Positions 4,939-28,697 of a stretch of 40,637 nucleotides of DNA are shown in pieces. The stretch's first letter is position 1; each line of letters begins with the position of its first letter. Location: assembly GCA_003056165.1 (NCBI GenBank), contig LSNR01000019.1, positions 1 through 40,637 of the forward strand, written 5' to 3'. The notes beneath the pieces were generated by a model. It did no database searches. It saw nothing but the letters and a program-made list of their open reading frames with translations, and was not told the DNA's origin. A program made the position numbers and the translations under genes. The stretch comes from Parcubacteria group bacterium M6-OD1-3 (lineage in GTDB: Bacteria; Patescibacteriota; Minisyncoccia; Moranbacterales; UBA9337).

Positions 4939-7455
4939 ATGTATCATAAAAAAACTGGTAAAGATAATAATAAAAAAAGATCCTGGGGGAAAATTATTTT
5001 CAGAATAGTTGTTTCCCTTTTCGTGCTGGGAGTTATTTCCGTAATTGGTGTGTTTGCTTATTTTGCCAAAGATTTACCAAATCCGAATAAAGTTAATAAA
5101 CGAGTAATAGCACAATCTACAAAAATTTATGATCGCACCGGACAGCATTTACTTTACGAAATTCATGGAGAAGAAAAAAGAACACTCATTCCATTTAATC
5201 AAATGGGAGACAATATAAAAAATGCCACGATTGTTTTGGAGGATAAAGATTTCTACTATCATCACGGAATAAAACTGACATCCATTATGAGGGCAATGCT
5301 AAAAGATGTTCTTAAGCGAGGAGCGGCACAAGGAGGTTCGACTATTACACAACAACTTGTTAAAAATTCAATATTAACCAGAGAGCGGACGATGAGCAGA
5401 AAAATTAAGGAAGTAATATTGTCATTTGAAATTGAGCAAAAATTTTCCAAAGATGAAATTTTGAAAATGTATCTAAATGAAATTCCTTATGGTTCAAATG
5501 CTTACGGAATTGAAGCAGCTGCAAAAACTTTTTTTGGAAAATCTGCTAGAGATTTAACAATAGACGAAGCAGCTTTATTAGCATCACTTCCTAAAGCCCC
5601 AACTTACTATTCTCCATTTGGTTCTCATCGAGATAGATTGAAATCTCGGCAAGAAATGGCTATAAATAGTTTGGCGGAACTTGGCTATATCTCTAAAGAA
5701 GAAGCAGAGAATGCTAAACAGATTGATATCTTTAAGAAAATAGTTGTTCGTCAAGAAAATATGCAAGCTCCACACTTTGTAATGTATGTTAAGGAATATT
5801 TAGATAATAAATATGGTGAGCAAGAAATGAAAGAAGGCGGACTAAGTGTTTATACTACATTGGATTGGGATAAGCAACAAATTGCTGAAAAAGTTGTTAA
5901 AGAAGGTGCGGAGAAAAATTTAAAAAAATGGAACGCAGAGAACGCTGCTTTAGTGGCGATTGACGCAAAGACTGGACAAATTTTAGCAATGGTTGGAAGC
6001 AAAGATTACTTCGACAAATCAATTGATGGACAAGTTAATGTAGCACTTAGTAGACGACAACCAGGATCTTCTTTTAAACCCTATGTTTATTTAACAGCTT
6101 TTACAAAAGGGTATTTGCCAGAGACAATTCTTTATGATGTAGAAACTGATTTTAATAAAGGTAGCGATGATGATTATATTCCACAAAACTATGATGGAAA
6201 ATTTCGTGGTCCGGTTAAAATGCAAGAGGCGTTGGGAATGTCGCTAAATGTTCCAGCAGTTAAAACACTTTATCTTGTGGGAGTAAAAGATGCTATTAAA
6301 ATGGCAAAAGACTTGGGGATTACCGGATTGAATTATCCAGATCGTTATGGATTGTCGCTGGTTCTTGGTGGCGGTGAGGTGAGGTTATTAGACCATACCA
6401 ATGCCTTTGCAACATTGGCAGATGGTGGAATTAAGCATAACAAGACTGCTATTCTTAGAATTGAAGATAAGGATAAAAAGATAATTGAAGAATTTAAAGA
6501 TAATCCAGGAGACCGAGTCGTAGAAGAAAAATATGTGGCAATGCTTGATTATATCATTTCCAATAATAAATTTCGAGCACCGGCTTTTGGGGAGCAAAAT
6601 CCTTTGCGATTTGATAATCGCCAAGTTGTCGCTAAGACTGGAACGACAAATGAATTTCGTGATGGTTGGACAATGGGATACACACCATCGATTGCTGTTG
6701 GAGTTTGGGCGGGAAATAATGACAATAGTCCAATGAAACCTGGGGCAGCAGGAGCTAATGTAGCATCACCTATCTGGAGAAGTTTTATGGATAGTGTTTT
6801 AGAAAATTACAATACTGAAGAGTTTCCAAAATATGACGAAGAAGAAGTTTTAAAAGAGGTTGACAAACCCATTCTCAAGGGAGATTTAGATATCAAAAAA
6901 AAGGTTGAAGTTTGTGAAATTCCTGGTGAAAAAAATAAATGGTGTTTGGCTAGTAAATATTGTCCAAATAAAGAAAGGAAGAAGAAAACTTTTGTGGAGG
7001 CACACAATATTCTCTGGTATGTTGATAAGAAAGATCCGCGTGGAGATATTCCGAAACATCCAGAAAAGGATGCTCAGTTTAATCGCTGGGAAGAAGCTGT
7101 GCAGAAGTGGTACAAAAAGAATAAAAAGAAAAAATATATTTTAGATAGCATCCCAGAAAAAGAATGTCGAGAAAATGATTTTACAAAGTATAAGCCAGAT
7201 GTTGATTTAAATGTTTCAAAACAAAACATTGCACAATTAAAAATTTCCGCTGATAGCAAAGCTGATTATGGAGTGGATAGTATCAAAATCTATGTAGATG
7301 GGCATGAAATTGGTTCAACAGGAAGTAGCTCAATCAGTCTTGTTTATGATGTTCCGGCAGAGAAAAATAATTCTACATTAAAAATTACAGCTAAGTTGAA
7401 GGATGAAAATGGAAATGAGACAGACGACAGTCAGAATGTTAATATTAGCTTTTAA
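4939..7455 (+). CDS. Class A penicillin-binding protein (PBP1A family)
   Basis: 838 aa; GT51 EDKDFYYHHG and GAAQGGSTITQQLVKN, transpeptidase RRQPGSSFKPYVY and VAKTGTTNEFRDGWTMGY; C-terminal Ig-like tail. Confidence 0.95.
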   Translation: MYHKKTGKDNNKKRSWGKIIFRIVVSLFVLGVISVIGVFAYFAKDLPNPNKVNKRVIAQSTKIYDRTGQHLLYEIHGEEKRTLIPFNQMGDNIKNATIVLEDKDFYYHHGIKLTSIMRAMLKDVLKRGAAQGGSTITQQLVKNSILTRERTMSRKIKEVILSFEIEQKFSKDEILKMYLNEIPYGSNAYGIEAAAKTFFGKSARDLTIDEAALLASLPKAPTYYSPFGSHRDRLKSRQEMAINSLAELGYISKEEAENAKQIDIFKKIVVRQENMQAPHFVMYVKEYLDNKYGEQEMKEGGLSVYTTLDWDKQQIAEKVVKEGAEKNLKKWNAENAALVAIDAKTGQILAMVGSKDYFDKSIDGQVNVALSRRQPGSSFKPYVYLTAFTKGYLPETILYDVETDFNKGSDDDYIPQNYDGKFRGPVKMQEALGMSLNVPAVKTLYLVGVKDAIKMAKDLGITGLNYPDRYGLSLVLGGGEVRLLDHTNAFATLADGGIKHNKTAILRIEDKDKKIIEEFKDNPGDRVVEEKYVAMLDYIISNNKFRAPAFGEQNPLRFDNRQVVAKTGTTNEFRDGWTMGYTPSIAVGVWAGNNDNSPMKPGAAGANVASPIWRSFMDSVLENYNTEEFPKYDEEEVLKEVDKPILKGDLDIKKKVEVCEIPGEKNKWCLASKYCPNKERKKKTFVEAHNILWYVDKKDPRGDIPKHPEKDAQFNRWEEAVQKWYKKNKKKKYILDSIPEKECRENDFTKYKPDVDLNVSKQNIAQLKISADSKADYGVDSIKIYVDGHEIGSTGSSSISLVYDVPAEKNNSTLKITAKLKDENGNETDDSQNVNISF

Positions 7456-7581: not shown

Positions 7582-9696
7582 ATGAATAACAATAAAAAAA
7601 AAGATTTGGAAAGAATGTTTAGTCCGCGAGAGGTGGCGGTTGTGGGAGCGACGGAAAAAGAGGGAAAGATTGGCAATATTATTGCTCGTAATCTTTTGGG
7701 ATTGGGTTATGAAGGAAAAATTTTTTTTGTTAATCCGAAACATAAAACACTTTTTAAGAAAAGAAGTTATAAATCTCTAACGGAAATTGATGATAAGATT
7801 GATTTGGCGATAATTGCCGTTCCGGCAAAATTTGTTAATCAAATTGTTGATGAAGCGAAAAATAAGGTGAAAAATTTTGTAGTAATTTCTGCCGGTTTTG
7901 CTGAGATGAATTTGGAGGGGAAAAAACGAGAAGAAGAATTATCAACAATGGCTGAAAAATATCAATTAAATATCTTAGGTCCAAATTGTCTGGGATTTAT
8001 CAATCCGAAAATAAAATTAAACGCATCTTTTGCTAGTGATTTGCCCAAGCAAGGTGGAATTTCTTTAATCTCTCAATCGGGAGCCTTGATGGTGGCAATG
8101 ATGGATAAGGCAAGACAAGAAAGTTTAAAATTTTCGCAAATTATTTCAGTTGGGAATAAAATGCAGTTGGATGAAGTCGCTTTATTAAAATATCTCGAAA
8201 GTGATCAAGACACTAAAGTGATAGCTATTTATTTAGAAGGAATAAAAAATGGTAAAGAGCTCGTGAAAACGGCGAAAAAAATTAATAAACCGATTATAAT
8301 TTTGAAAGCTGGAAGAAGTGAAAAAACTTTACAAGCTATCTCTTCTCATACTGGCTCCTTAGCCGGTAGTGATGAAATTGCTTCGATAGCCTTCGCTAAA
8401 GCGGGAATTTTGCGCGTGCAAAGCTTGGAAGAATTTTTTAATACGATAAAATTTATTTCCAATTATACTGACGAGAAAGATAATATTCGCGATTTTAAAA
8501 ATAGTGTGATTATTACAAATGCTGGTGGTCCGGGAGTTTTGGCAACGGATGTTTTTGCAGAAACAAGATTACAATTAGTTGATTTATCTTCGGAAACAAA
8601 AGATACTTTACAACAATTTTTGCCAATGGAAGCATCGGTGGAAAATCCAGTTGATTTATTAGGTGATGCTGATGAAAGTAGATATGAACAAGCTTTAAAG
8701 ATTTTATCCAACGAAAAAGAGTTGGATACTATTTTTTGTTTATTGACTGCTCAAGACCAAACACCGACGGAAAAAATTGCTCAAGTGTTGGTTAATTTTT
8801 CTAATGAGAATGATAAAAGAGTTATTCCTATTTTTATAGGTGCCGAAAAAATCAATAAGGCTGTAAATATTTTGGAAAAAAATAATTTACCAAATTTTTC
8901 TTTTCCAAAAATGGCAATTAAGGCGGTGGATAGAATCTATAATTGGCAAGAAAAAAGGAAAGAATTGCAATTAGATGAAGCTTCCGTTTCAGAAAAAAAT
9001 GTTGGTCAAGTTGAAGTTATTAGAAAGAGTCAGCAAATAATTAAAAACGCAATTAAAGAAAACAGAAAAGCATTATTGTTCGCGGAAGCGACGGAAGTAA
9101 TGAAAAATTATAATATTCCAACAGTTGATTTTGTAAATTTTGTCGATAAAAAATTATGGAATAATCTTTCTACCGCTAAATTGAAATTTCCAGTAGTGTT
9201 AAAAATTGATAGCGATAAAATTTTACACAAAACAGACCGACAGGGACTAATTTTAAATATTGATAATAAAAAAGAATTACGGCAAGCTGTCAAAAAAATG
9301 TGGACTAATTTTCCAGGTGAAAAACTTTTAGCTCAGTCGATGATTGTTTCGCAATCGGAATTAATTTTGGGATTAAAAAGAGACCCTATTTTCGGAGCGA
9401 CAATTGTTTTTGGTTTAGGCGGAATTTATACTGAAGTTTTTAAAATGGTTGATTTTATGTTATTGCCGTTGACAAGAAAAGAAATTAAAAGAAACATACT
9501 GCAAAGCAAAATCAATTTTCTATTCCAAAAAACTCGCGGAAAAATAATAGCGGATGTTGATGAAATGACGGATTTGATTTTTAACTTTTCTCGTTTGGCT
9601 GAAGATTTGCAACAAGTTAAAGAAATAGATATAAATCCCTTATTAATTAATAAAGAAGGTAAATTTCTGGCTGTCGATATAAAAATAATGATTTAA
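7582..9696 (+). CDS. ADP-forming acetate/acyl-CoA synthetase (alpha-beta fusion)
   Basis: 704 aa; CoA-binding MFSPREVAVVGATEKEGKIGNIIARNL, GPNCLGFINP, ISSHTGSLAGSDEIASIAFAKAGILR, C-terminal ATP-grasp FPVVLKIDSDKILHKTDRQGL, GATIVFGLGGIYTEVFKMV. Confidence 0.92.
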   Translation: MNNNKKKDLERMFSPREVAVVGATEKEGKIGNIIARNLLGLGYEGKIFFVNPKHKTLFKKRSYKSLTEIDDKIDLAIIAVPAKFVNQIVDEAKNKVKNFVVISAGFAEMNLEGKKREEELSTMAEKYQLNILGPNCLGFINPKIKLNASFASDLPKQGGISLISQSGALMVAMMDKARQESLKFSQIISVGNKMQLDEVALLKYLESDQDTKVIAIYLEGIKNGKELVKTAKKINKPIIILKAGRSEKTLQAISSHTGSLAGSDEIASIAFAKAGILRVQSLEEFFNTIKFISNYTDEKDNIRDFKNSVIITNAGGPGVLATDVFAETRLQLVDLSSETKDTLQQFLPMEASVENPVDLLGDADESRYEQALKILSNEKELDTIFCLLTAQDQTPTEKIAQVLVNFSNENDKRVIPIFIGAEKINKAVNILEKNNLPNFSFPKMAIKAVDRIYNWQEKRKELQLDEASVSEKNVGQVEVIRKSQQIIKNAIKENRKALLFAEATEVMKNYNIPTVDFVNFVDKKLWNNLSTAKLKFPVVLKIDSDKILHKTDRQGLILNIDNKKELRQAVKKMWTNFPGEKLLAQSMIVSQSELILGLKRDPIFGATIVFGLGGIYTEVFKMVDFMLLPLTRKEIKRNILQSKINFLFQKTRGKIIADVDEMTDLIFNFSRLAEDLQQVKEIDINPLLINKEGKFLAVDIKIMI

Positions 9697-10939: not shown

Positions 10940-11104
10940 AAAAAGATAATTTTAGCAATCGTATTTTTCAAATCTAAAATTAATTATAAATATCACATCT
11001 CAAAAATGAGTTTTAGAATTTAATCTGTTAGAAATGAATTTTATTTAGGTGGATAAAATTTATTGGTTGAATTCTATTTACTGATAGATGGAAAATATAA
11101 ACTT

Positions 11105-11590
11105 ATGAAAATTTTAGGAATTGACCCTGGAACAGCCACAACTGGTTGGGCGATTTTGGAGGAAAAAAAAGGTGAAATTATGCCGATAGCTTACGGACAC
11201 ATTTCTACATCTCCCGATGATTCGACTAGTATGAGATTAAAGGAGGTGGCTGATGATATTGAAAAAATAATTCAAGATTACAAACCGCAAGAGAGTGCCA
11301 TAGAAGATATTTTCTTTTTTAAAAATGTTAAAACGGCTGTAAAGGTTAGCCAGTCGCGCGGAGCAATGCTTTTAACTTTGGAAAAAATGAGTGTAAAAAT
11401 TTTTGAATATACTCCACTACAGGTAAAGCAAGCGATTACCGGTTATGGTCGGGCGGAAAAAATGCAGGTACAGCTTATGGTGAAAAATATTTTAAATCTT
11501 AAGCAAATTCCCAAACCGGATGATACCGCCGACGCAATTGCCATTGCCTTATGTCATTTGCAGAGTAGAAAATTGCTTAATTTATGTTGA
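11105..11590 (+). CDS. ruvC: Holliday junction resolvase RuvC
   Basis: MKILGIDPGTATTGWAIL, AIEDIFFFKNVKTAVKVSQSRGAMLL, KQAITGYGRAEKMQVQ, DDTADAIAIALCH. Start moved from 11063 to ATG at 11105. Confidence 0.95.
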   Translation: MKILGIDPGTATTGWAILEEKKGEIMPIAYGHISTSPDDSTSMRLKEVADDIEKIIQDYKPQESAIEDIFFFKNVKTAVKVSQSRGAMLLTLEKMSVKIFEYTPLQVKQAITGYGRAEKMQVQLMVKNILNLKQIPKPDDTADAIAIALCHLQSRKLLNLC

Positions 11591-11615
11591 CTTTATGAGA
11601 AAAAGAGAATATTAT
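11587..11615 (+). promoter_or_regulatory. Predicted promoter of the 7TM/ATP-grasp cluster
   Basis: TTGACT (11587-11592), 17-nt spacer, TATTAT (11610-11615). Confidence 0.5.
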
Positions 11616-11756
11616 AAAAAATCAATATTTGGTGCTATAATAAAAATATTGAAGAGGAGGTGTTTTTAATTTTTTTTAGTTAGTAAGATCGTTTTCGGAT
11701 AAATTTTTTTCAATTTTTTTCAAAAGAATTTATGTGAGAATAGTTTATTTTTTCTT

Positions 11757-12425
11757 ATGTTTAATTATTTGACAATTGATTACTTTGTTTCACAAGGTGT
11801 TCCTCAGGAAAGTATCTTGCTTATTTTAATGTTGCCAATTGTAGTAACATTGATAGCTTTTTTCCGTCAAGTTTTTGGTATCAAATCTTTTGGTATTTAC
11901 ACACCATCAATTACTACCTTTGCTTTCTTAGTAATGGCTGGTGAAGCTGGTTCAAAGGGAATAAAATATGGAGTAGCTATTTTTATCAGCGTTATTCTGG
12001 TTGGAATGGCAACTCGTTATATTCTTAAAAAATTTAGATTGCTGTATCTTCCTCGAGTGGCAATTACATTAAGTGTAGTGGCATTTTCGATTTTAGCGGT
12101 ATTGGTTTTAGGAGGTTCAATGCAGAGGACAGGATTAGCTTCAGTTCCTATCTTCCCTCTTTTAATTATGATTACTATTGTAGAAAAATTTGTGTCTGCT
12201 CAAATTCAAAAAGGAAATAGAACAGCTTTTATTCTGGCAACAGAAACACTATTCATATCTCTGGTCGGATATTTTATTATAAGTTGGAATGTGGTAATAG
12301 TTACTGTTTTAGCTCATCCATGGATTGTATTATTAACAATTCCAATCAATATATTTTTAGGCAAATGGACAGGTTTGCGTGTTTTGGAATATTGGAGGTT
12401 TAAAGATGTTTTAAAAAAAATGTAG
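11757..12425 (+). CDS. 7TM membrane protein (7TM domain normally fused to an inactive transglutaminase)
   Basis: 222 aa; ILMLPIVVTLIAFFRQVFGIKSFGIYTPSITTFAFL...GIKYG and following helices fit the 7TM_transglut type; next to ATP-grasp/RimB fusion. Confidence 0.75.
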   Translation: MFNYLTIDYFVSQGVPQESILLILMLPIVVTLIAFFRQVFGIKSFGIYTPSITTFAFLVMAGEAGSKGIKYGVAIFISVILVGMATRYILKKFRLLYLPRVAITLSVVAFSILAVLVLGGSMQRTGLASVPIFPLLIMITIVEKFVSAQIQKGNRTAFILATETLFISLVGYFIISWNVVIVTVLAHPWIVLLTIPINIFLGKWTGLRVLEYWRFKDVLKKM

Positions 12426-12463
12426 ATAGCCTCTTTAAAATTAACAGTTAAGATTTCAAAATA

Positions 12464-13864
12464 ATGCTTGATTATTTAAAAAATAGAAAAAAAATATTGG
12501 GAATGAATTCCCGATATTTGCAATATATTCGTCCCAACAATCTCAAAAGAGCAATTAAGATTGCAGATGATAAATTATTGAGCAAAAAAGTTTTGCAAAA
12601 AAATAAAATTCCAGTACCGAAATTAATTGCCAAAATTACCAGCCATGAGGAACTGGAAAATTTTAATTGGGACAAATTACCAAATAGTTTTGCATTAAAA
12701 CCAAATAAGGGTTTAGGCGGAGCGGGAATTGTGGTTGTTTTTGGAAGAAAGAAAAATAGGGAAGATGCTTGGGTTAAAGCGGATAGAAAAATTGTGACCA
12801 TAGAGGATCTCAAAAGTCATATCAGAAATATTTTAGATGGAAATTTTTCACTTTCTGGTGTTCCAGATATTGCTTTTTTTGAAGAAAGATTGACATTATT
12901 GAAGCTTTTTAAGCCATATGCTTTTAGGGGAATTCCAGATATTCGTGTAATCGTTTATAATCGAGTACCGATAATGGCTATGTTACGGTTACCTACAAAA
13001 GAATCACGAGGAAAGGCTAATCTTCAGCAGGGTGGAATTGGTGTTGGAATTGATTTGGCTACTGGCATAACGACGACAGCAGTCCAAGGGAAAAAATCAA
13101 AAATTATTGAAGATATACCTGATACGCGACTTAGTGTTTCCGGACTTAAAATTCCTTTTTGGCGAGAAATTTTAGAATTAGCAATAAGCACACAAGATGT
13201 TTCCGGCTTGGGATTTTTAGGTGCAGATGTAGCTATAGACAAAGAGCGTGGCCCAGTTTTTCTAGAGCTTAATGCGCGCGCAGGATTGTCAATTCAAATT
13301 GCTAATTTGGCTGGATTGCAAGAACGAATGGAAAGGGTGGATGGATTGAAAATTAAAACAATAAAGCGTGGTGTGAATGTGGGAATGGATTTATTTGGTG
13401 GAGATATTGAGGAAGAAGTGGAAGAAATTTCCGGTAAAAAAGTGATTGGTTTTAAAGAGACGGTAAAATTAGTTGGGCGAAATGGAAAAGAATTGGAAGT
13501 TAATGCTAAAATTGATACTGGGGCATATACTTCGTCGATAGATGAAGAATTGGCAAAAAAATTAGGATTTGAAAAAACGATGGATAAATTTAATGCTATT
13601 GGAAAAACTTATGAAGAATTAAAAGATTTGGATAGAAATGAACGGTGGCGAATATATAGAAATATTCCTAATTTAGCGTCAACAGTTATGGTTAGTTCTT
13701 CGCACGGAACAACATATCGACCAATAATAAAATTAAATTTTGTTATGGATGGACTTCCGGTGATTGCCAAGATGACGGTCATTGACCGTTCTCATTTAAA
13801 ACATCAAGTAATTATCGGGCGAAGAAATTTGAGTAAATTTATGATTGATGTCAGCAAAATATAA
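12464..13864 (+). CDS. ATP-grasp ligase fused to a RimB-like (ATP-dependent zinc protease/retropepsin-like) domain
   Basis: 466 aa; N-terminal ATP-grasp LPNSFALKPNKGLGGAGIVVVFG, GPVFLELNARAGLSIQIANLAG; C-terminal VNAKIDTGAYTSSIDEELAKKLG, HQVIIGRRNLSKFMIDVSK. Confidence 0.88.
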   Translation: MLDYLKNRKKILGMNSRYLQYIRPNNLKRAIKIADDKLLSKKVLQKNKIPVPKLIAKITSHEELENFNWDKLPNSFALKPNKGLGGAGIVVVFGRKKNREDAWVKADRKIVTIEDLKSHIRNILDGNFSLSGVPDIAFFEERLTLLKLFKPYAFRGIPDIRVIVYNRVPIMAMLRLPTKESRGKANLQQGGIGVGIDLATGITTTAVQGKKSKIIEDIPDTRLSVSGLKIPFWREILELAISTQDVSGLGFLGADVAIDKERGPVFLELNARAGLSIQIANLAGLQERMERVDGLKIKTIKRGVNVGMDLFGGDIEEEVEEISGKKVIGFKETVKLVGRNGKELEVNAKIDTGAYTSSIDEELAKKLGFEKTMDKFNAIGKTYEELKDLDRNERWRIYRNIPNLASTVMVSSSHGTTYRPIIKLNFVMDGLPVIAKMTVIDRSHLKHQVIIGRRNLSKFMIDVSKI

Positions 13865-13954
13865 AGATTAAATATTTAATTAAAGATTAATTTCCAAAAA
13901 GATGATTTGTGTACATATGTCTCAGTGTGCATTAAGTTGTCTATTAAAAATAGT

Positions 13955-14812
13955 ATGAATTTTTTTTGTATTTCTACTAAAAAACAAAAAATAACTAGAG
14001 GGTTGCTAAAAAAATCAGCTGAAGAACGAGGTCTGAAATTTATCAATATTGATGTTAATAATTTTGATACTTTAGATAAAAAATATCAGAACAATGAGGG
14101 TGTTTTGTATCGAATAACCTCTGGAGAGTTGGCAAAAAACATTGAACTTTTTTTGTTGCAAAAAAATAATCTGGAAACTTTTTATAAAACTAATAAGCGA
14201 GCGTTTTTTAATGCTTTGGATATTCCATTACAAAAATTTTATAACATTTCAATGCCAAAAACAGTAACTATTCTTAGTGATAATTATGAAACATTAAAAG
14301 CAATCGTTGAAGAAGTCGGTGGATTTCCAGTTATTTTGAAAGTAACCGGTTTAAGTCATGGGGCGGGAGTAATGAAGATGAATTCTATGGAATCACTTAT
14401 TTCTGTAATTGGTTTTTTAAAAAAAAACGGAGCGACAAGAATGGTTTTGCGAGAGTATATTGATTCTTATAGGCATGCTCGTTTGGTAGTGCTGGGTGAT
14501 AAGGTTGTGGACAGTATTGAATATATTGTTCCAGAAAATGACTTTAGGACCAATGCTGGAAAACCGCAGGTTAAGGCGGAAAAATTTTCCGATGATTTTG
14601 AAAAAATAGCTATTGAAGCCATTAAAATTATTGACTTAGAATTTGGTGGGGTGGATATATTAATTGGAAAAGATAGTAGTCCGTATTTGGCTGAAGTTAA
14701 TTTTCCCTGCTATTTTCCTAGAAATCAATTAACTACAGGTGTGGATATTTCCGGAATGATGGTTGAGTATTTAGTTGATAAATTTAATAAAAAAAATGAA
14801 AAAGACACTTAA
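13955..14812 (+). CDS. RimK-like ATP-grasp ligase
   Basis: MNFFCISTKKQKITRGLLKKSAEERG..., FPVILKVTGLSHGAGVMKMNSMESL, LREYIDSYRHARLVVLGDKVV, PYLAEVNFPCYFPRN. ORF track starts at TTG 13907; ATG 13955 preferred. Confidence 0.85.
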   Translation: MNFFCISTKKQKITRGLLKKSAEERGLKFINIDVNNFDTLDKKYQNNEGVLYRITSGELAKNIELFLLQKNNLETFYKTNKRAFFNALDIPLQKFYNISMPKTVTILSDNYETLKAIVEEVGGFPVILKVTGLSHGAGVMKMNSMESLISVIGFLKKNGATRMVLREYIDSYRHARLVVLGDKVVDSIEYIVPENDFRTNAGKPQVKAEKFSDDFEKIAIEAIKIIDLEFGGVDILIGKDSSPYLAEVNFPCYFPRNQLTTGVDISGMMVEYLVDKFNKKNEKDT

Positions 14813-15740
14813 AAATAAAATAATCTTGGAAATCAAAAAAGCCGCACAAAAAAAAGGGGTTGATTTTGAATTTATTTATCGGACATATTATTATTTAATG
14901 AAAGCTGACAAGAAGATACTGTTTACGGAAAGTATGCCTGAAACTACTAGTGCAATTAGTTATCGCTTGACTGAGAATAAATTTCTAATGAATGTGTTTT
15001 TGAAGAGATGGAGATTTCCTGTACAGGTAATGGAGCGTTATTCAAGTATAGAACAAGCAATTTCTTTTTTGAAAAAATATAAAAAAATCGTTGTTAAACC
15101 GGAGCGAGGAATGCATGGCAAAGGAATAACTGTCGGACTAACGAATGAAAAAGACTTACCTTTGGCAATTGCTTTTGCTCAAAAAAACGATGTTTATCAA
15201 AAAGTTATTTTGGAAGAGTTTAATCAGGGCGATGATTATAGAGTATTGGTTATTGGCAAGAAAAAAGTTTTTGTTTCTAAAAAAGAACCGGTTTTTGTGG
15301 TTGGAAACGGTAAAGATAAAATAATTGATCTATTGCAAAAGCGAAATAAAAATCTAATAAAGAGATATCAAGCGGAAAGAGATGATATTATGGAAAAATG
15401 TTTGCAAGAGCAATGTTTATCTTTTTCTGATGTTCTTGAAAATGGTCAAAAAATATATTTGAAAAAAACTGCTAACATAAAAAGTGGCGGAACGCCAACT
15501 GATTATACTGATAAAATTTCTCCCAAAATTAAAAGTGTCGTAATAGAGATTGCTAATAAATTAGAAATGGATGTAGCTGGCTTTGATATAATGACTGAAG
15601 ATATTTCCAGTGAAGATTTTGAAATTATTGAGATAAATGCTTATCCTGGACTGTTGTTGCATATTTATCCCGTCAAAGGAAAATCTTACAATGTTGCTGA
15701 TGAAATTGTAAAGTATTTTTTCTTTTCTAATAAATTTTAA
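14796..15740 (+). CDS. CphA/GshAB-like ATP-grasp ligase (stand-alone)
   Basis: KIVVKPERGMHGKGITVGL, FVVGNGKDKIIDLLQKRN, LKKTANIKSGGTPTDYTDKISPKIKSVVIEIANKLEMDVAGFDIM, FEIIEINAYPGLLLH. Starts inside the upstream gene (14810-14812 stop); ATG 14796 preferred to TTG 14775. Confidence 0.85.
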   Translation: MKKTLKNKIILEIKKAAQKKGVDFEFIYRTYYYLMKADKKILFTESMPETTSAISYRLTENKFLMNVFLKRWRFPVQVMERYSSIEQAISFLKKYKKIVVKPERGMHGKGITVGLTNEKDLPLAIAFAQKNDVYQKVILEEFNQGDDYRVLVIGKKKVFVSKKEPVFVVGNGKDKIIDLLQKRNKNLIKRYQAERDDIMEKCLQEQCLSFSDVLENGQKIYLKKTANIKSGGTPTDYTDKISPKIKSVVIEIANKLEMDVAGFDIMTEDISSEDFEIIEINAYPGLLLHIYPVKGKSYNVADEIVKYFFFSNKF

Positions 15741-15764
15741 AATAGACTTCTTGTAAAACTATCG

Positions 15765-15794
15765 TTTACTGCAATTTATTATTTTTGGTAAAAT
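15765..15794 (+). promoter_or_regulatory. Possible internal promoter upstream of the third RimK-like gene
   Basis: TTTACT (15765-15770), 18-nt spacer, TAAAAT (15789-15794). Confidence 0.35.
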
Positions 15795-15805
15795 TTATTT
15801 CAAAC

Positions 15806-15900
15806 TTTCTTACATTAGCTAAGGCTAAAGTTTCAAAAGTTATTCAATCAATTTTACTCAAAACTAGTAAATTTCGTAACAAAGCTAGTTTTGTAAGAAA
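15806..15900 (+). promoter_or_regulatory. Candidate structured 5' leader (three-way-junction-like)
   Basis: Outer stem TTTCTTACA (15806-15814)/TGTAAGAAA (15892-15900); hairpin TTAGC/GCTAA (15815-15828); hairpin AAACTAG/CTAGTTT (15861-15891). Confidence 0.4.
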
Positions 15901-15915
15901 TCTAATATAAATATA

Positions 15916-16809
15916 ATGAAAAAATTGTGGATTATTACATTTGGTGAGTGTTTTAGATTAAACAGGCTTAAGGAAGCATGTGAAAAAAGAAATGTAGAGT
16001 TGGAGGTTATAAAAACCTATAATGTGCATATTACAAATAATCAAGTAATCTCTGATGGAAAAAAAATTAATTTTAAAAAAGGTGATATTGTTTGGACAAT
16101 TTCCAACAATGCGGCAGCACATCACTTGATTCGTTATTTGACAGCAAGGTTTAAAAAGGAGATAAAGTTTATTTGGACAAATACTGGAGCAATAAATTAT
16201 GCAGATAAATTTTATGGGAACAGTTTTTTTACTTCAATGAATATTCCAACTCCGAAAACTGTTTTTATAAACACATTTAAAGATTATAAATTAGATAATT
16301 TAGCAAAATATGTTGGGGGATTTTCTTGTGTAGTTAAGGCTAATATTGGTTCAATGGGGAATGGTGTAGAAATAGTTAGTTCAACTAGTGATGTTAAAGA
16401 ATTTATTAAAAAAAAGATGGAGGCACAAGTAGATGTACCTTTTCGCAGAAGTTCTTTTATTTTGCAAGAATTTATCAAAGAGTCAGCGGGAACCGATTTT
16501 AGAGTCTTGGTTTTAAGGGGAAAAATTCTGGGTGGAATTAGGAGAAAATCTGTTAATGGCGATTTTCGTGCCAATGTTTCTTTGGGTGGTAAAGCGGAAA
16601 TTGTGGAAGTGGACAAAGAGATGAAAAAAATGGCGAAGAAAATTATGAAAGAGGGAGATATTTTTTACGCCGGAATTGATTTTATAAAAAGCAAGCGCGG
16701 TTATCTCGCTTTGGAAATAAATACTTCCGCTCAATTTAAAGGGTTTGAAAAAGCCACCGGCGTAAATGTTGCTGGAAAAATAGTGGATGCGTTGATGGAG
16801 AATGTATAG
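15916..16809 (+). CDS. RimK-like ATP-grasp ligase
   Basis: 297 aa; GGFSCVVKANIGSMGNGVEIV, LQEFIKESAGTDFRVLVLRGKILGGIRRKSVNGDFRANVSLGG, YLALEINTSAQFKGFEKATGVNVAGKIVDALM. Confidence 0.9.
   Translation: MKKLWIITFGECFRLNRLKEACEKRNVELEVIKTYNVHITNNQVISDGKKINFKKGDIVWTISNNAAAHHLIRYLTARFKKEIKFIWTNTGAINYADKFYGNSFFTSMNIPTPKTVFINTFKDYKLDNLAKYVGGFSCVVKANIGSMGNGVEIVSSTSDVKEFIKKKMEAQVDVPFRRSSFILQEFIKESAGTDFRVLVLRGKILGGIRRKSVNGDFRANVSLGGKAEIVEVDKEMKKMAKKIMKEGDIFYAGIDFIKSKRGYLALEINTSAQFKGFEKATGVNVAGKIVDALMENV
16760..16797 (+). repeat. 38-bp direct repeat, copy 1 (inside ATP-grasp C-terminus)
   Basis: GCGTAAATGTTGCTGGAAAAATAGTGGATGCGTTGATG, identical to 18249-18286. Confidence 0.97.
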
Positions 16810-16839
16810 ATAATTATTTTTTTAAAAATTGATAAAATT

Positions 16840-18240
16840 ATGAAAGAAGGAAGATTTGAAATAATTAAAAATCGTCGGAAAGATGTTGTTGAAAAAATAT
16901 CCGATGATAAGAGAAAGGACAGAGGTTTGATTCGTCGAGAGGTTTTGAAATTGAGTCAGCGAGAAGATAATAACCTTTCTAGTAAAGAAAAACAGGAAAT
17001 TATTGATAGAATGATAAGCAGACATATGGAAGTGCATCATATTGGTGAAAAAGGAAATAATACTTGCGTAGATTCGCTACATTCTCAAGTAGCGAATACC
17101 GGAGAAATTTTAAACATTTTGCGAAAAAGGGGAGATTTTGGAGATATTGATAAATCCATTATTATTGATTTGGAATCAAGAATTAATACGAAAATAATGA
17201 GGCAATTTCCGCAAAAAAGAGTATCTGAAATTGTTGAAGAAATTTTGCAAGAGGGAGAATTTAAAAACGATAAGTTGTCCAGAGTTATCTTGAAAATCAA
17301 AAAGTTATACGAAGATTACACTGGAGAATTAGCTGTAAATTCTGCAATAAAAAGTGAGAGTTCTTATTTCATTGCCAGATTTAGTAGGAGATATTTGGAT
17401 GCAAATCGTCCACTTAATGCTCGTAAAATAAAAAAATATTTACGAGTGGAGTTTGGTCAGGGACAGCATTTAGCACAATATTATCTGTTGCAAAGAATTT
17501 TCAGAGAGACTCTTGGTCAAGAAAAAGAAGGAGAAGTTGAAAAACCATTTTTGCACATTTCTTTGCATGGAAAATCTGACAAGCCGGATGATGTTGGTGA
17601 TGTTATGATTGCCAATGGTTTGAAAAAAGGAATGATGCCGTGTGATCCTCAAATAGCTCGTTGGTTTGAGAAAAGATTAAATGAAAAAATGAAAAGCGAA
17701 AAAATGAAAAAGAATAACGATGGTGACTATTTTTCAGCTGGAGTTTCTCGGGAAGGGCAACGATTTTGTGGAAATGTTATTCATTGTGAGCGTCGTTTTG
17801 GCAATGATTTCTTAAAGCCATTGGGAAAAAACTATCAGTTTATTCAGGTTGAAATTTCGCCAAAACTAAGAGCTCAGCATTTTGAAAAATTAAGCGAAAT
17901 ACTGGCGGAAATTTTAAAGGAATTTAATGAACAATTCAGAGACAAGGGGCAACTGGAAACTTTTTTGAAATCAAATAAAAGCAAGGAAGATGACATCAGA
18001 TTAGAAGGAAAGTTGTATTCCAAAATTGGTTTTGATGAAAATATTTTATCCGGGAAAATTTTAATGGGTGCTAGCCATAGAATGGCATTAGATGTGAATA
18101 TTGGTGACAAAGTATTAGTGGATGGAGAAGAGTTTATTGTAGACAAAATGACAAAAAACAAAATTTCTTTTAGGCAACCATTTATAGGAGGAAATAATAT
18201 GGATATGGTCAACAAAAAGGTTGTTATTAAAAAAAAATAA
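16840..18240 (+). CDS. N-formylglutamate-amidohydrolase-like protein with unusual N- and C-terminal extensions
   Basis: 466 aa; YFIARFSRRYLDANRPL (D-x-NR motif), PFLHISLHGKSDKP, QFIQVEISPKLR fit the FGase superfamily; small C-terminal beta-rich-looking region IGDKVLVDGEEFIVDKM. Confidence 0.6.
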   Translation: MKEGRFEIIKNRRKDVVEKISDDKRKDRGLIRREVLKLSQREDNNLSSKEKQEIIDRMISRHMEVHHIGEKGNNTCVDSLHSQVANTGEILNILRKRGDFGDIDKSIIIDLESRINTKIMRQFPQKRVSEIVEEILQEGEFKNDKLSRVILKIKKLYEDYTGELAVNSAIKSESSYFIARFSRRYLDANRPLNARKIKKYLRVEFGQGQHLAQYYLLQRIFRETLGQEKEGEVEKPFLHISLHGKSDKPDDVGDVMIANGLKKGMMPCDPQIARWFEKRLNEKMKSEKMKKNNDGDYFSAGVSREGQRFCGNVIHCERRFGNDFLKPLGKNYQFIQVEISPKLRAQHFEKLSEILAEILKEFNEQFRDKGQLETFLKSNKSKEDDIRLEGKLYSKIGFDENILSGKILMGASHRMALDVNIGDKVLVDGEEFIVDKMTKNKISFRQPFIGGNNMDMVNKKVVIKKK

Positions 18241-18248
18241 AGCTACTA

Positions 18249-18286
18249 GCGTAAATGTTGCTGGAAAAATAGTGGATGCGTTGATG
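18249..18286 (+). repeat. 38-bp direct repeat, copy 2 (orphan ATP-grasp C-terminus)
   Basis: Identical to 16760-16797; in frame encodes KATSVNVAGKIVDALMKK* with no upstream gene body. Confidence 0.97.
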
Positions 18287-18331
18287 AAAAAATAAGAATA
18301 GTGAAAAATGTAATTATTGCAGATAATATAA

Positions 18332-18406: not shown

Positions 18407-18898
18407 ATGGAAGAGCAAAATAAAACACGAGAGGAAGAGCAGGAAGGAGTAATGGGCAATGAAGAAAAATCTCAGTCTCAATCTCAGACAAGTGAGATTA
18501 AAGCTGAAGATAATGTTGCAACCAGTGTTGGGGAAACGAAAACTCAGCCAGCTCAATCCGAAACTACACCTACAAGCGAAGTTGAGAACGGTGATGATAA
18601 GGATAAGGATATTGAAGAAAATAAATTTATTGCGTCGCTAAGTTATTTGGGAATATTGGTATTGGTACCGTTGTTAGTAAAAAAAGACAGTAAATTTTCT
18701 CAATTCCACGCTAAGCAAGGATTAGTTCTATTGATTATTTGGGTAGTTGGTTGGGTATTTTTCTGGATTCCAGTTTTTGGTCAAATTTTGTTGTTAGCGT
18801 TAATGATATTGAATATTATCGCTTTCGCACAAGCGTTGAGTGGAAAATACTGGGAAATTCCGGTAATTAGTGATTGGGCGAAAAAAATAAATTTATAA
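18407..18898 (+). CDS. DUF4870-like membrane protein
   Basis: Low-complexity Gln/Ser/Glu N-terminus, then IASLSYLGILVLVPLLVKKDSKFSQFHAKQGLVLLIIWVV...GKYWEIPVI. Confidence 0.75.
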   Translation: MEEQNKTREEEQEGVMGNEEKSQSQSQTSEIKAEDNVATSVGETKTQPAQSETTPTSEVENGDDKDKDIEENKFIASLSYLGILVLVPLLVKKDSKFSQFHAKQGLVLLIIWVVGWVFFWIPVFGQILLLALMILNIIAFAQALSGKYWEIPVISDWAKKINL

Positions 18899-18956: not shown

Positions 18957-19060
18957 TATTTTTGTTTTGAATATAGATTGAAATATGTTAAAATGAAAAA
19001 AGTTAAAATATAAAGATAGAGAAAATTCAATTGGTTAAATTTTTTTTAAAGATTAAAACT

Positions 19061-19624
19061 ATGTTTGAAAAAAACAAAAAATATATAATTATTTTAGCAG
19101 TAAGTGTAATTTTTGTTATTAGCAGTATTGGTATTTTTTTAAAAATAGAAAAGGCTAATAATAAGAATGATAATAGTAATAAACAAGGAGAAAGCATCGA
19201 AGATACTGAGAAAAAAGAATATGAAGTTTTGGTCTTTGTAAGAAATCAAAGCAACTCTAATCCGGAAGAAGATAGAAGAAGTTCTATGAAGAAGGGATAT
19301 GTTATTGGTGTTTATAATAATGAACATAATTGGTCTAATGCGGAAAAGACGAGTTACTTAATTTTAAAAATGAACTTGACCAACAAAGAAAAGACAATGT
19401 TGGTACAACCGGTGGAAAAAGAAATTCAAAAAAAAGATTTATCAGAGGAAGATCAAAAAATGTTGGAAGATGAAGGACAAGAAGTAAAAAAAGAAACTGT
19501 TGGAATGCGGGCGTATAAAATAAATTTGGAAAAAATAGGTTTTGATAATCCAAAACAGCTTGTAAAGGGTCAGCCGTTTGAGGAACAATCTTTTGGTTGG
19601 GAGATTGTGGAGAAGGTAAAGTAG
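19061..19624 (+). CDS. Membrane-anchored protein of unknown function
   Basis: ATG 19061 MFEKNKKYIIILAVSVIFVISSIGIFLKIEK: one N-terminal TM, charged extracytoplasmic region. ORF track starts at 19031. Confidence 0.65.
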   Translation: MFEKNKKYIIILAVSVIFVISSIGIFLKIEKANNKNDNSNKQGESIEDTEKKEYEVLVFVRNQSNSNPEEDRRSSMKKGYVIGVYNNEHNWSNAEKTSYLILKMNLTNKEKTMLVQPVEKEIQKKDLSEEDQKMLEDEGQEVKKETVGMRAYKINLEKIGFDNPKQLVKGQPFEEQSFGWEIVEKVK

Positions 19625-24246: not shown

Positions 24247-25467
24247 ATGCCGAAATTTTTATATGTTGCTAAAAATTATGATGGTGAAATGAAAAGTGGC
24301 GAGTTGGTTGCTAATGATGAACGAGGAGTTGCTGAGCAATTGAAAGCAGATGGTTTTTTGGTGACGTCCATAAAATTAATTAAAAATAAAGACGATAAAG
24401 CAAAAATTAAATTTATTGACAGATTTACAACAATTTCTTTGCAGGATAAAATGATGTTTGCTCGAAATTTGAGCGTTATGATAAGTTCTGGATTGACTAT
24501 CTCAGGGGCGATGAAAAATTTATCTGTACAACTGAAAAATAAAAAATTTCAGCAAATTTTAGTGAATATTCATAATGATATTCAATCAGGAAAAACATTG
24601 AGTTCGGCGATGAGTAAATATCCTGCCGTTTTTAGCGAACTTTTTGTAAATATGGTTAAAGTCGGAGAAATTGGTGGAAATCTTGATGAGACTTTAAAGA
24701 TAGTGGCAGTTCAATTAGAGAAGGAACATAGTTTGAGAAGTAAGGTTATAGGGGCAATGGTTTACCCAGCTGTTATAATGGTGGCAATGGGTGGAGTTGG
24801 CGTTTTAATGCTTACTTATATTTTACCGAAGATTACTAGTGTTTTTAAGGATATGGATGTAGTTCTTCCCAAGTCAACACAATTTGTTATTGCATTAAGT
24901 GATATATTAAAACAACATGCTTTATTGATGACAATTTTTTTAATAATGGTGATTGTTTTATCTAAATTGGCACTAAAAACAGATACTGGAAAAAAAGCAC
25001 TTGGTTTTGTTTTATTAAGAACTCCTGCGATTAAAAATATGGTAATTAAAATTAATTGTGCTAGATTCTCTAGAATTTATAGTTCTCTTTTGAAAAGTGG
25101 TGTAACATCTTTAGAATCACTTAAAATAGTTTCTAATACATTATCTAATTATTATTACAAGAAAGCGATTAATGACAGTATTAAACGAATTCAAAAAGGT
25201 GTTGACTTAAGTAAAGTTATTGGAGAAAACGGAGATATTTTTCCAATTTTAGTTAAACAAATGCTTGAAGTTGGGGAGCAGACAGGAGAAACGGAATCAA
25301 TACTTTTAAAAATGGCAGAATTTTACGAAATGGAAGTTGATCAGCTTACTAAAAACTTATCTTCTATTGTTGAGCCGGTGCTTATGATTGTGATGGGTGG
25401 TGCGGTTGGATTTTTTGCTGTGTCGATGTTACAACCAATGTATAGTTTGATGGATAATATCAAATAA
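24247..25467 (+). CDS. pilC: Type II secretion/type IV pilus inner-membrane platform protein PilC/GspF
   Basis: MPKFLYVAKNYDGEMKSGELVANDERGVAEQL, duplicated T2SSF domains, LLKMAEFYEMEVDQLTKNLSSIVEPVLMIVMGGAVGFFAVSMLQPMYSL. Confidence 0.95.
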   Translation: MPKFLYVAKNYDGEMKSGELVANDERGVAEQLKADGFLVTSIKLIKNKDDKAKIKFIDRFTTISLQDKMMFARNLSVMISSGLTISGAMKNLSVQLKNKKFQQILVNIHNDIQSGKTLSSAMSKYPAVFSELFVNMVKVGEIGGNLDETLKIVAVQLEKEHSLRSKVIGAMVYPAVIMVAMGGVGVLMLTYILPKITSVFKDMDVVLPKSTQFVIALSDILKQHALLMTIFLIMVIVLSKLALKTDTGKKALGFVLLRTPAIKNMVIKINCARFSRIYSSLLKSGVTSLESLKIVSNTLSNYYYKKAINDSIKRIQKGVDLSKVIGENGDIFPILVKQMLEVGEQTGETESILLKMAEFYEMEVDQLTKNLSSIVEPVLMIVMGGAVGFFAVSMLQPMYSLMDNIK

Positions 25468-25563
25468 GAATCTTGCGTAAAATTAAATAATTTCTAAAGT
25501 TTAAAATATTAGTGTTATGTGGTAATATTGTATTAATCGGTTTAATAAAATAAAAATAAAAAC

Positions 25564-26502
25564 ATGAAATGGATTGTAAATGATCTTAATATAAAAAAAC
25601 AAGCGGATGATTTGGGCATCAGCATTTGGCAAACACCAAGTTTGTTATTTTTGATAATGGGAATTATCAGTATTATTGTTATGATTGTAGTTTATTTTGT
25701 TTCTAGAAATCATACTTCACCAGAATATTTAATTTTAGCAGAAACATTTGTGACAGTGACGATATTTGTTGCTGGAAATATGATTATAACCAGTGTGGAA
25801 AAATTAACGCAAATTAATAAAATGAAATCAGAGTTTGTTGCTATTGTTTCTCATCAATTAAAAAATCCTTTAACAGGCATTAATTGGGATATAGAATTGT
25901 TAATATCAAAATATAAAAAGGGTCTTGATCAAAAACAACTTGATATTATAAAAAAAATAAATGGGTCTACCATTCTTATGACTAGGTTGGTAAACGACTT
26001 ATTAGATGTAGTAAGAATAGATCAAGGAAACTTATTCGTTAATAAAGATAAATTTAATATAGAGGGAATTATAAAGAAAACAATAGTTAAAAATGAATCG
26101 TTGACAAGACAGATGAATGTTGAAATAAGGGTGGAAATTTCTGACAATACTCCTCAAATAGTTGGCGATGAGAAACGGCTGGAGGTAGCTTTAGATAATC
26201 TTTTTTCAAACGCTGTTAAATACAATAAAGAAGGTGGAGTAGTTGTAATTAAGGTTGAAAAGAAAAATAAGGAGATAAATCTTTGTGTGGAGGATAACGG
26301 AATTGGAATTCCTGAGAAAGAACAGGCTCAAATTTTTGAGAAATTTTATCGTAGCGAGAAGGCAATAAGAAAAGAGACTGGAGGGACTGGATTAGGACTG
26401 TATATTGCTAAAAATATTGTTGAACAATGTGGTGGAAAAATATGGTTTAAATCAAGTGAAGAAAAAGGAAGTAAATTTTGTTTTTCTTTACCACTTGCTT
26501 AA
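25564..26502 (+). CDS. Membrane sensor histidine kinase (two predicted TM)
   Basis: SEFVAIVSHQLKNPLTGINWDIELL, LDNLFSNAVKYN, CVEDNGIGIPEKEQAQIFEKFYR, GGTGLGLYIAKNIVEQCGGKIWF. Confidence 0.95.
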   Translation: MKWIVNDLNIKKQADDLGISIWQTPSLLFLIMGIISIIVMIVVYFVSRNHTSPEYLILAETFVTVTIFVAGNMIITSVEKLTQINKMKSEFVAIVSHQLKNPLTGINWDIELLISKYKKGLDQKQLDIIKKINGSTILMTRLVNDLLDVVRIDQGNLFVNKDKFNIEGIIKKTIVKNESLTRQMNVEIRVEISDNTPQIVGDEKRLEVALDNLFSNAVKYNKEGGVVVIKVEKKNKEINLCVEDNGIGIPEKEQAQIFEKFYRSEKAIRKETGGTGLGLYIAKNIVEQCGGKIWFKSSEEKGSKFCFSLPLA

Positions 26503-26535
26503 TTTTTCAATTAATTTATTTAAGTTTTTTTAGTT

Positions 26536-26916
26536 ATGAATAAGAAAAAAGTGTTAGTTGTTGAAGATGATGCTATCTTGCGTCAGGCTTTAACAGAGTT
26601 TTTAGAGGCTGATAATTTTTCTGTTATAGTTGCGACAGATGGAGAAGAGGCTGTTAAATTTACTAAAAATAATAAACCTGATATTATTCTTCTGGATATA
26701 ATATTACCCAAAAAAGATGGCTTTGATGTGATAAAAGAAATTAAAGAGGATGATAATACTAAAGATATTCCAATAGTGTTGTTGACTAATTTAGGAAGCT
26801 TAAGTGATATTGAAAAAGCTTTGGCGTTGGGAGCAACAACATATTTGGTTAAAGGTGACTATCAACTTAAAGAAGTGATGGAAAAAATTAAAGAGATATT
26901 ATTTCTTAAAAAATAA
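26536..26916 (+). CDS. Stand-alone receiver-domain response regulator
   Basis: KVLVVEDDAILRQALTEFL, PDIILLDIILPKKDGFDVI, VLLTNLG, TYLVKGD; 126 aa, no output domain. Confidence 0.95.
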   Translation: MNKKKVLVVEDDAILRQALTEFLEADNFSVIVATDGEEAVKFTKNNKPDIILLDIILPKKDGFDVIKEIKEDDNTKDIPIVLLTNLGSLSDIEKALALGATTYLVKGDYQLKEVMEKIKEILFLKK

Positions 26917-26918
26917 TA

Positions 26919-28697
26919 ATGAGAATAGATAACAAACAATTAAAAGAGTTTCTTTTAGATAGTGAAACTATAGAGAAAGATAAAATTGGGAGAGTTTTTG
27001 ATGAAGCGGAGAAAGGCGGTAAGAAAATGGGAGAGTTGCTGTTAGAAAAAAAACTTATTACTGTAGAAGATTTAGGTAAATTATATGCTTATATCGCAGG
27101 TGTTCCTTTTGTAAATCTTGAAAAGCAAATTGTTTCTCGTGATATCTTACAAATAATTCCCGAGCCGATTGCGAAAAAATATAAAATAGTAGCTTTTGAT
27201 AAGACAGACAACAGTTTAAAAGTTGCAATGCTTAATCCGGATGATTTGCAAACTATTGATTTTATTAAGAAAAAAACGGGTCTAAAAATAAATCCCTGTT
27301 TAACAACAGAAGATGGAATGCAGTTTGTTTTAAAACAATATGAAAGAAGTTTGAAAGCAGAATTTGGAGATATAATTGGAAATGAAGAAGATAATCTTTC
27401 GGGAAATATTATTAAGAAGAGTAAGAAAAATAAAACCAAATCTAATAAAGATTTATCAAAAGAAGCTGAAGACTTGCCAGTGATTAAAGTTGTAGACACA
27501 CTAATTAAGCATGCTATTTTGGAATCTGCCAGTGATATTCACATTGAACCTGATGAAAAAGAAGTTCGAGTAAGATATCGTATTGATGGAATATTGCATA
27601 ATGCGATGACTTTACCAAAAAAAATAATGTCTGGAATAATAGCACGAATTAAGGTGTTGTCTAACTTAAAATTAGATGAACATCGCTTACCGCAAGACGG
27701 TAGATTTAAAATGGAAAAAGATGAATATAAAATATCGTTTCGAGTAAATGTGTTACCAATATTTGACGGAGAAAAGATTGTGATGCGTTTATTAGATGAA
27801 TCCTCAAAAGGTTTAACTTTAGAAAAAATGGGATTAAGGGGCAGTTCTTTAGAAATTATTCACAGAGAAATTAAAAAACCAAATGGTATGATTTTGGTGA
27901 CTGGACCGACTGGTTCTGGAAAAACAACCACTCTTTATACTATTATGGATATTCTTAATACAGCAAAAGTCAATATTAGCACCGTTGAAGATCCCGTTGA
28001 ATACCGGATGCATAGAGTCAATCAAACTCAAATCAATACTAAGATAGGTTTAACTTTTGCAGCTAGTTTGCGAGCTCTTCTTCGACAGGATCCTGACATT
28101 ATTATGGTTGGGGAAATTAGAGACCATGAAACAATGGAGATAGCTATGCATGCAGCAATGACTGGACACTTAGTATTGTCTACACTCCACACGAATAGTG
28201 CTGCTGGAACATTGCCTCGTCTTCTTGATATGGAAGCAGAACCATTTTTAGTAGCATCAACAGTAAATGTCGTGATCGGTCAACGATTGGTGCGACGACT
28301 TTGTCCAGAATGTAAGGTTAGTTATAGTATTAACAAAAAAGAATTAAAAACTCTGGAGGATAATTTGGATACAAATAGAATGTTGGATATCCTAAAGAAA
28401 ACAGCTGAACTAAAAGGAAAAATCAAGGCAGATAGTGATTGGAGTTCGCTTAAGTTTTATAAAGCCAAAGGTTGTAAACAATGTAATGATGAGGGGTACA
28501 AAGGACGACTTGGTATTTATGAAGTTCTGGAGGTTGATGAAACTATTGAAAAATTAATTATGCAATCGGCTTCTACAGAAACTATTGAAGAAAAGGCTCG
28601 AGAGAATGGAATGATTATGATGGCAGAAGATGGATTTACTAAGGCGATTCAAGGAATTACTTCAATTGAAGAAATTTTAAGGGTTACTAAGGAATAA
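26919..28697 (+). CDS. pilB: Type IV pilus assembly ATPase PilB/GspE
   Basis: GMILVTGPTGSGKTTTLYTIMD, RQDPDIIMVGEIRDHETMEIAMHAAMTGHLVLSTLHTN, CPECK...CKQCNDEGYKGRLGIYEVL. Confidence 0.95.
   Translation: MRIDNKQLKEFLLDSETIEKDKIGRVFDEAEKGGKKMGELLLEKKLITVEDLGKLYAYIAGVPFVNLEKQIVSRDILQIIPEPIAKKYKIVAFDKTDNSLKVAMLNPDDLQTIDFIKKKTGLKINPCLTTEDGMQFVLKQYERSLKAEFGDIIGNEEDNLSGNIIKKSKKNKTKSNKDLSKEAEDLPVIKVVDTLIKHAILESASDIHIEPDEKEVRVRYRIDGILHNAMTLPKKIMSGIIARIKVLSNLKLDEHRLPQDGRFKMEKDEYKISFRVNVLPIFDGEKIVMRLLDESSKGLTLEKMGLRGSSLEIIHREIKKPNGMILVTGPTGSGKTTTLYTIMDILNTAKVNISTVEDPVEYRMHRVNQTQINTKIGLTFAASLRALLRQDPDIIMVGEIRDHETMEIAMHAAMTGHLVLSTLHTNSAAGTLPRLLDMEAEPFLVASTVNVVIGQRLVRRLCPECKVSYSINKKELKTLEDNLDTNRMLDILKKTAELKGKIKADSDWSSLKFYKAKGCKQCNDEGYKGRLGIYEVLEVDETIEKLIMQSASTETIEEKARENGMIMMAEDGFTKAIQGITSIEEILRVTKE

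Follow-up and report, generated by a model that had tools for sequence, protein, structure and literature searches.

Background

The closest described counterpart of the locus analysed here is rloABC of Pseudomonas aeruginosa, the subject of a genetic and biochemical study in 2025 (PMC12239564). RloABC govern hypo-osmotic survival and cell shape in this species, with ampicillin sensitivity also among the phenotypes, and the loss of RloA is suppressed by deletion of rloB or rloC (PMC12239564). RloA cleaves runs of at least eight glutamates; its poly-Glu-binding residues K46, R114 and R137 line the site, and the R114A and R137A mutants gave no rescue in vivo (PMC12239564). According to the same paper, 96% of RloB hits came from Proteobacteria (PMC12239564). 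In Shewanella, a mutant in an inactive-transglutaminase 7TM gene displayed hyper-vesiculation (PMC12096838).

Here we describe a related cluster in the window, i.e. the whole analysed stretch of 40,637 nucleotides from Parcubacteria group bacterium M6-OD1-3 (order Moranbacterales), which is one contig of a 0.82-Mb genome that is 94% complete. An earlier note on this DNA had proposed an undescribed system. This can be upheld in part: the core of the cluster is a counterpart of the already studied rloABC (PMC12239564), but its fused, cytoplasmic and cassette-bearing version is new. Our explanation of the cluster as a whole, which we hold with slightly more belief than doubt, is a Rlo-type system, associated with the membrane, for non-ribosomal amide ligation.

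Gene content of the cluster

Reading of the open reading frames confirmed six consecutive genes on the forward strand at 11757-18240. The interval proposed before (11587-18290) did contain six forward-strand genes, but it was slightly too wide, as its first position falls inside the end of ruvC (11063-11590, +, PF02075), a syntenic flanking gene outside the system. HMM families agreed with the parts that had been named (7TM protein, ATP-grasp/protease fusion, further ATP-grasps), the FGase part being a remote match only. The C-terminal E-x-N metal-binding motif, read directly from the sequence, was kept in all four ATP-grasps of the cluster. The reported gene overlap of 17 nt at 14796-14812 is correct, given the ATG start of the gene at 14796-15740.

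Several features of the flanks are recorded here for completeness. A further ATP-grasp protein, of the ADP-forming acyl-CoA synthetase type (CoA_binding_2, Succ_CoA_lig, ATP-grasp_5), is encoded at 7582-9696 (+) and is unrelated to the cluster. Small membrane proteins follow right after the cluster (18407-18898 and 19031-19624, both +), with a weak DUF4870 match and, in one of them, a single N-terminal TM segment. Genes of the type II secretion/type IV pilus type occupy 24247-28697 (+), including T2SSF (24247-25467) and an MshEN-T2SSE ATPase (26919-28697). Close to the contig end, 32788-40233 (+) encodes what is probably a large surface protein, 2481 aa long and containing many Kelch repeats as well as fibronectin type III domains.

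For comparison, gene neighbourhoods were read at 117 loci, 57 of them in the order (the window and L031-L086) and 60 elsewhere in the phylum (L087-L146). Sampling was seeded on either core gene, the ligase was readable at 115 loci, and locus counts are high by one, since L031 and L039 are apparently one contig. Relatives of the cluster genes co-occurred repeatedly in this survey, which supports the earlier view of a cluster of several amide-bond-forming ligases to which hydrolases are linked, and argues against a chance collection of genes that never meet elsewhere.

The core pair

The first gene (11757-12425, +) encodes a RloB-like 7TM protein of 222 aa without the N-terminal extracytoplasmic domain. 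It matched 7TM_transglut (PF14402, 2.8e-25), and hydrophobic segments were detected. The match to the NCBIfam RloB model was confined to the 7TM half and did not reach the cut-off. An AlphaFold model built with four sequences had a mean pLDDT of 55.8, and a Foldseek search of it against the PDB gave no match. At two loci from other classes (L109, 7982-9559; L115, 8034-9590) a PKD domain at the N-terminus of the 7TM protein occupies the position of the inactive transglutaminase of Pseudomonas RloB.

The second gene (12464-13864, +) encodes a fusion of a RloC-like ATP-grasp (residues ~1-305) and a RloA/RimB-like retropepsin (~325-465). The ligase part matched ATPgrasp_ST (PF14397, 3e-68) and TIGR02291 (7.6e-83; 278 bits, under the curated cut-off of 314 bits), the protease part Zn_protease/retropepsin (PF05618, 1.8e-9) and the RloA3 model (1.1e-9). 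No signal peptide, TM or hydrophobic segment was found in the fusion protein. Its named relatives come from two records of Candidatus Moranbacteria and a further one from Patescibacteria, which places the host in the latter phylum.

Functional residues of the fusion were conserved. Across the loci, the ATP-grasp residues K79 and E268 were each present in 115/115 and N270 in 114/115; the catalytic Asp of the retropepsin (D351 in the window) was kept in 108/115 and throughout the order (57/57). By alignment, K349, R419 and R442 of the window protein correspond to K46, R114 and R137 of Pseudomonas RloA, and in the order these positions held K or R, R and R, respectively, in 57/57 loci each.

The genes for ligase and retropepsin were fused in 111 of the 115 loci. 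The 7TM gene lay directly upstream of the ligase on the same strand in 113/115, with a median gap of 4 nt, so a chance gathering of these first two genes is unlikely. PF14402 was present in 54/57 relatives; sampling of the phylum found it in 87 of 287 genomes (30%), and of 188 genomes in the class, 46 had a TIGR02291 match. The 7TM protein and the fusion thus form a core that is common to Patescibacteria and widespread in the phylum. The lack of the usual transglutaminase partner, previously taken as unusual, turned out to be normal in the class: a search for Transglut_i_TM (PF14400), run without a positive control, gave no match in 57 relatives.

MATCAP fusions and retropepsin decay

A MATCAP domain was additionally fused to the ligase-retropepsin protein in 11 of 115 loci (L108, 8611-10995, and ten others), the resulting triple fusions exceeding 700 aa. 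Their retropepsin active sites have decayed: R114 and R137 were each kept in 1/11 and the catalytic Asp in 7/11 (Fisher test for residue loss, 4e-11, with relatedness ignored). It looks from these sequences as if MATCAP takes over trimming in the triple fusions. MATCAP genes were also detected in 15/57 relatives, 14 of them with an above-cut-off match, and in 10 of these 14 the gene lay at most 9 kb from the core; for genes randomly placed in 1 Mb, again ignoring relatedness, such proximity would be expected with a probability of ~3e-15. The cluster in the window contains no MATCAP.

Human TMCP enzymes of the MATCAP family shorten poly-glutamate chains on tubulin (PMC10499314). Retropepsin and MATCAP, unrelated trimming enzymes whose families both act on chains of glutamate, thus alternate on one ligase, and this supports a glutamate-rich product.

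MATCAP also connects the core to other operons. One patescibacterial locus (L112) combines the core, MATCAP, an FGase and two ligases, and plasmids of Shinella (L151, 4457-8201) and Mesorhizobium (L153, 4505-8202) carry a tight operon of FGase, QEGLA/MATCAP and an ATP-grasp annotated as 'glutathione synthetase'. A full-text literature search for QEGLA or TIGR02421 gave one mention in a single paper and no study of the FGase-QEGLA-ATP-grasp operon. The RloA-RloB-RloC layout, in turn, was also present on a Legionella plasmid. The rhizobial operon and the Legionella layout resemble two halves of a whole, brought together in patescibacterial loci such as L112.

The FGase-like protein

The last gene of the cluster (16840-18240, +) encodes a protein of 466 aa, for which direct searches of Pfam and NCBIfam gave no match. 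Two proteins of sister clusters (L044, L078) share 46-49% identity with it, and the 612-aa protein of L112, which itself matches PF05013 at 9.5e-9, shares 23%. Comparison of the profile of this family with the L112 protein gave an E-value of 3.7e-5 over 196 columns. Direct profile comparison with eight bona fide FGases was weak (3.4% probability, E 0.013), and the 77.7% obtained after adding the L112 protein rested on a short D-x-N-R stretch. The C-terminus showed double-psi beta-barrel (DPBB) matches (7.7e-6). A single-sequence AlphaFold model had a mean pLDDT of 37.6 and was discarded as a basis. By remote relationship, the product is probably FGase-like. A scan of viral contigs found no relatives. 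A survey of 131 genomes of the order found the gene in 3, which makes it the rare part of the cluster.

The ligase cassette and alternative explanations

Between the core and the FGase-like gene lie three additional ATP-grasp genes. The first encodes a RimK-like ligase (13907, TTG, or 13955, ATG, to 14812, +; PF08443, 2.4e-22); its best relative reached only 71 bits, and the loci sampled in the order yielded no close relative. The second, of the CphA/GshB type (14796-15740, +, with the ATG start; TTG at 14775 is possible), matched TIGR02068 (1e-63) over the ATP-grasp half of cyanophycin synthetase alone and also resembles N-acetylglutaminylglutamine synthetase. Its substrate could be Asp, Arg or another residue, as the amino-acid specificity of ATP-grasps is unreadable from such matches. 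The third (15916-16809, +) is a RimK-family ligase scoring 165 bits against TIGR00768 (1.8e-48), over the cut-off of 143.4. It belongs to the ligase family that accompanies the FGase-like gene, and relatives were present in L044, L078, L049 and L084.

In the order, at least one ATP-grasp gene followed the core directly in 55/57 loci, with one to four per locus; contig ends make these counts too low. The four ATP-grasps of the window, considered unusual before, are three besides that of the core, within the usual range of the order (0 to 4). At a clustering threshold of 150 bits, the cassette ligases of the order fell into 13 families, forming 33 different sets in 55 loci; sets differed even inside one family-level group. 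Other cassette genes within the order encoded GT4, YdjC-like, GNAT and Mur-ligase-like proteins, and outside the order DUF3541 was found. Some cassettes also hold a carboxypeptidase of the MATCAP/QEGLA kind, an FGase or a Mur-ligase half. The cassette is therefore a swappable, lineage-variable unit next to a conserved core.

The CphA-type gene raises the question of a cytoplasmic storage polymer or compatible solute, cyanophycin-like or a glutamyl oligopeptide, which the linked hydrolases would degrade and the 7TM protein would export or sense. Several relatives fit this: L056 has a fused CphA-like enzyme of 853 aa (689 bits, under the cut-off of 850), L046 has split, cyanophycin synthetase-like ATP-grasp and Mur-ligase halves, and the cassette of L088, outside the order, includes an ATP-grasp with a match to an L-amino acid ligase C-terminal domain. 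The resemblance to N-acetylglutaminylglutamine synthetase and the osmotic phenotype of Rlo (PMC12239564) point the same way. In the window, however, the Mur-ligase half is missing, the cassette, with its many ligase sets, is too variable for a single storage compound, and the 7TM family is present in almost every genome of the order regardless of the ligases. We regard this explanation as unlikely.

Alternatively, the core pair alone might be one system, and the downstream ligases and FGase-like gene unrelated genes that happen to be co-located. Cassette turnover is indeed considerable: on a FastTree tree of core proteins, on which taxonomic family required 15 changes for 11 families (with no shuffled control), two ligase families showed 13 gains or losses each, the maximum for single ligase families, while MATCAP showed 8 and FGase 3. 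Moreover, outside the order 30 of 58 loci had no ATP-grasp directly downstream, a count to which contig ends contribute by lowering the number of downstream ligases. Nevertheless, the near-constant presence of downstream ATP-grasps in the order is hard to reconcile with mere co-location, as is the fact that MATCAP occurs both fused to the core and as its neighbour. A profile search of the host genome, furthermore, placed every PF08443 match inside the cluster. We find the restriction to the core pair quite doubtful.

Ribosome modification as by RimK and RimB, with the ligases glutamylating bS6 and the retropepsin trimming it, would suit the presence of RimK-family ligases together with a cytoplasmic RimB-family protease. 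Two reports present this chemistry as established in Pseudomonas (PMC11957791, PMC4741518). The bS6 of this genome (L165, 1132-1818, -, 228-aa ORF) does have an unusually long C-terminal tail rich in lysine and glutamate, but it terminates in DEILNI and not in glutamate. The almost invariant 7TM partner would have no place in such a pathway, and the protease is joined to a RloC-type, not a RimK-type, ligase; this alternative is very doubtful. Finally, a RiPP (graspetide) cluster, in which ATP-grasps would macrocyclise a ribosomal precursor peptide and for which there are predictions from Candidate Phyla Radiation genomes (PMC8939145), was set aside as scarcely credible, because matches to the maturase models (MvdC/MvdD, GRASP_SAV_5884) were weak beside the RimK-family matches, the hydrolase content suits chain trimming, and no convincing precursor was found in the cluster, where the sole intergenic forward-strand ORF encodes 41 aa from a TTG start (15785-15910).

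Proposed mechanism

We return to the Rlo-type amide-ligation system, which in this lineage probably writes and trims glutamate-rich or otherwise acidic chains at the cell membrane. In this model, the RloC-like ATP-grasp domain would activate a carboxylate with ATP and join amino acids to an acceptor or growing chain, the added residue being most likely L-glutamate or another acidic one. The retropepsin domain of the same polypeptide would cut chains that have grown long. The three extra ATP-grasps might use lineage-specific residues to lengthen, branch or cap the product, and the FGase-like protein might take off an N-acyl group or a glutamyl group at the end. The 7TM protein would tie the cytoplasmic product to the membrane as an exporter, anchor or sensor. 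That glutamate is the monomer in this lineage is an inference, as are the location of the acceptor in the envelope, the sequence in which the ligases act and whatever part the 7TM protein plays.

As for the acceptor, a gene for PBP1A lay downstream of the cassette on the same strand in 40 of the 46 loci of the order that offer 6 kb or more of sequence in that direction. In the window, unlike in most relatives, the PBP1A-type peptidoglycan synthase is encoded upstream of the cluster (4939-7455, +; PF00912/PF00905). As yebC, ruvC and ruvA are likewise syntenic (RuvC was found in 43/57 loci of the order), this linkage may be passive. Given the PBP1A linkage, and by analogy with the Pseudomonas rlo phenotypes and the hyper-vesiculation of Shewanella, an envelope acceptor is plausible. 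In a more far-reaching version of the model, to which we give little weight, a fixed membrane core and a fast-exchanged cassette would allow every patescibacterial lineage to decorate its envelope with non-ribosomal peptides of its own, and retropepsin, MATCAP and FGase would serve as interchangeable erasers.

If this version is true, it would represent a bacterial counterpart of tubulin poly-glutamylation that uses homologous erasers. The pattern of MATCAP replacement points to a poly-glutamate-like substrate and would link rlo and the FGase-QEGLA-ATP-grasp operons to one chemistry. The fusion unites writer and trimmer in one expressible protein. With the 7TM family present in 30% of the Patescibacteria genomes sampled and in nearly all of those in this order, a conserved and probably envelope-related function of little-studied bacteria is now testable.

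Comparison with described systems

Neighbourhoods of this kind are reportedly treated in the 2009 amidoligase survey of Iyer and colleagues. Among the described systems, RimK/RimB shares with the cluster RimK-family ligases and a cytoplasmic RimB-family retropepsin, but here the protease is fused to a RloC-type ligase and accompanied by a nearly invariant membrane partner and several ligases. Cyanophycin synthetase resembles the third ATP-grasp of the cluster in its ATP-grasp half, and some relatives have full-length or split versions, whereas the window gene stands without the Mur-ligase half. The rhizobial FGase-QEGLA/MATCAP-ATP-grasp operon comprises the same three kinds of enzymes that are joined to a Rlo-type core in L112; in contrast to it, the window has no MATCAP, and its FGase-like protein is highly diverged, with a C-terminus that resembles a DPBB.

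The likeness to Rlo extends to all members of the system, as the RloB 7TM protein, the RloC ATP-grasp and the RloA retropepsin have homologues in the core, where the catalytic Asp and the Lys/Arg poly-Glu clamp of RloA are retained. On the other hand, i) ligase and protease are fused and cytoplasmic here, while Pseudomonas RloA is a free-standing protein that carries a signal peptide and is secreted, ii) Pseudomonas RloB has an inactive transglutaminase domain, which is replaced by a PKD domain in some other classes and absent from this one, and iii) variable extra ligases follow downstream, and scores against the NCBIfam RloB and TIGR02291 models stay under their cut-offs. A transglutaminase domain and a separate secreted protease were both looked for and not found, which places the cluster outside the Rlo system in the strict sense. 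Since RloA is secreted in Pseudomonas and the protease is cytoplasmic here, the site of trimming differs between the two. The cluster probably works like a Rlo system that keeps its protease inside the cell.
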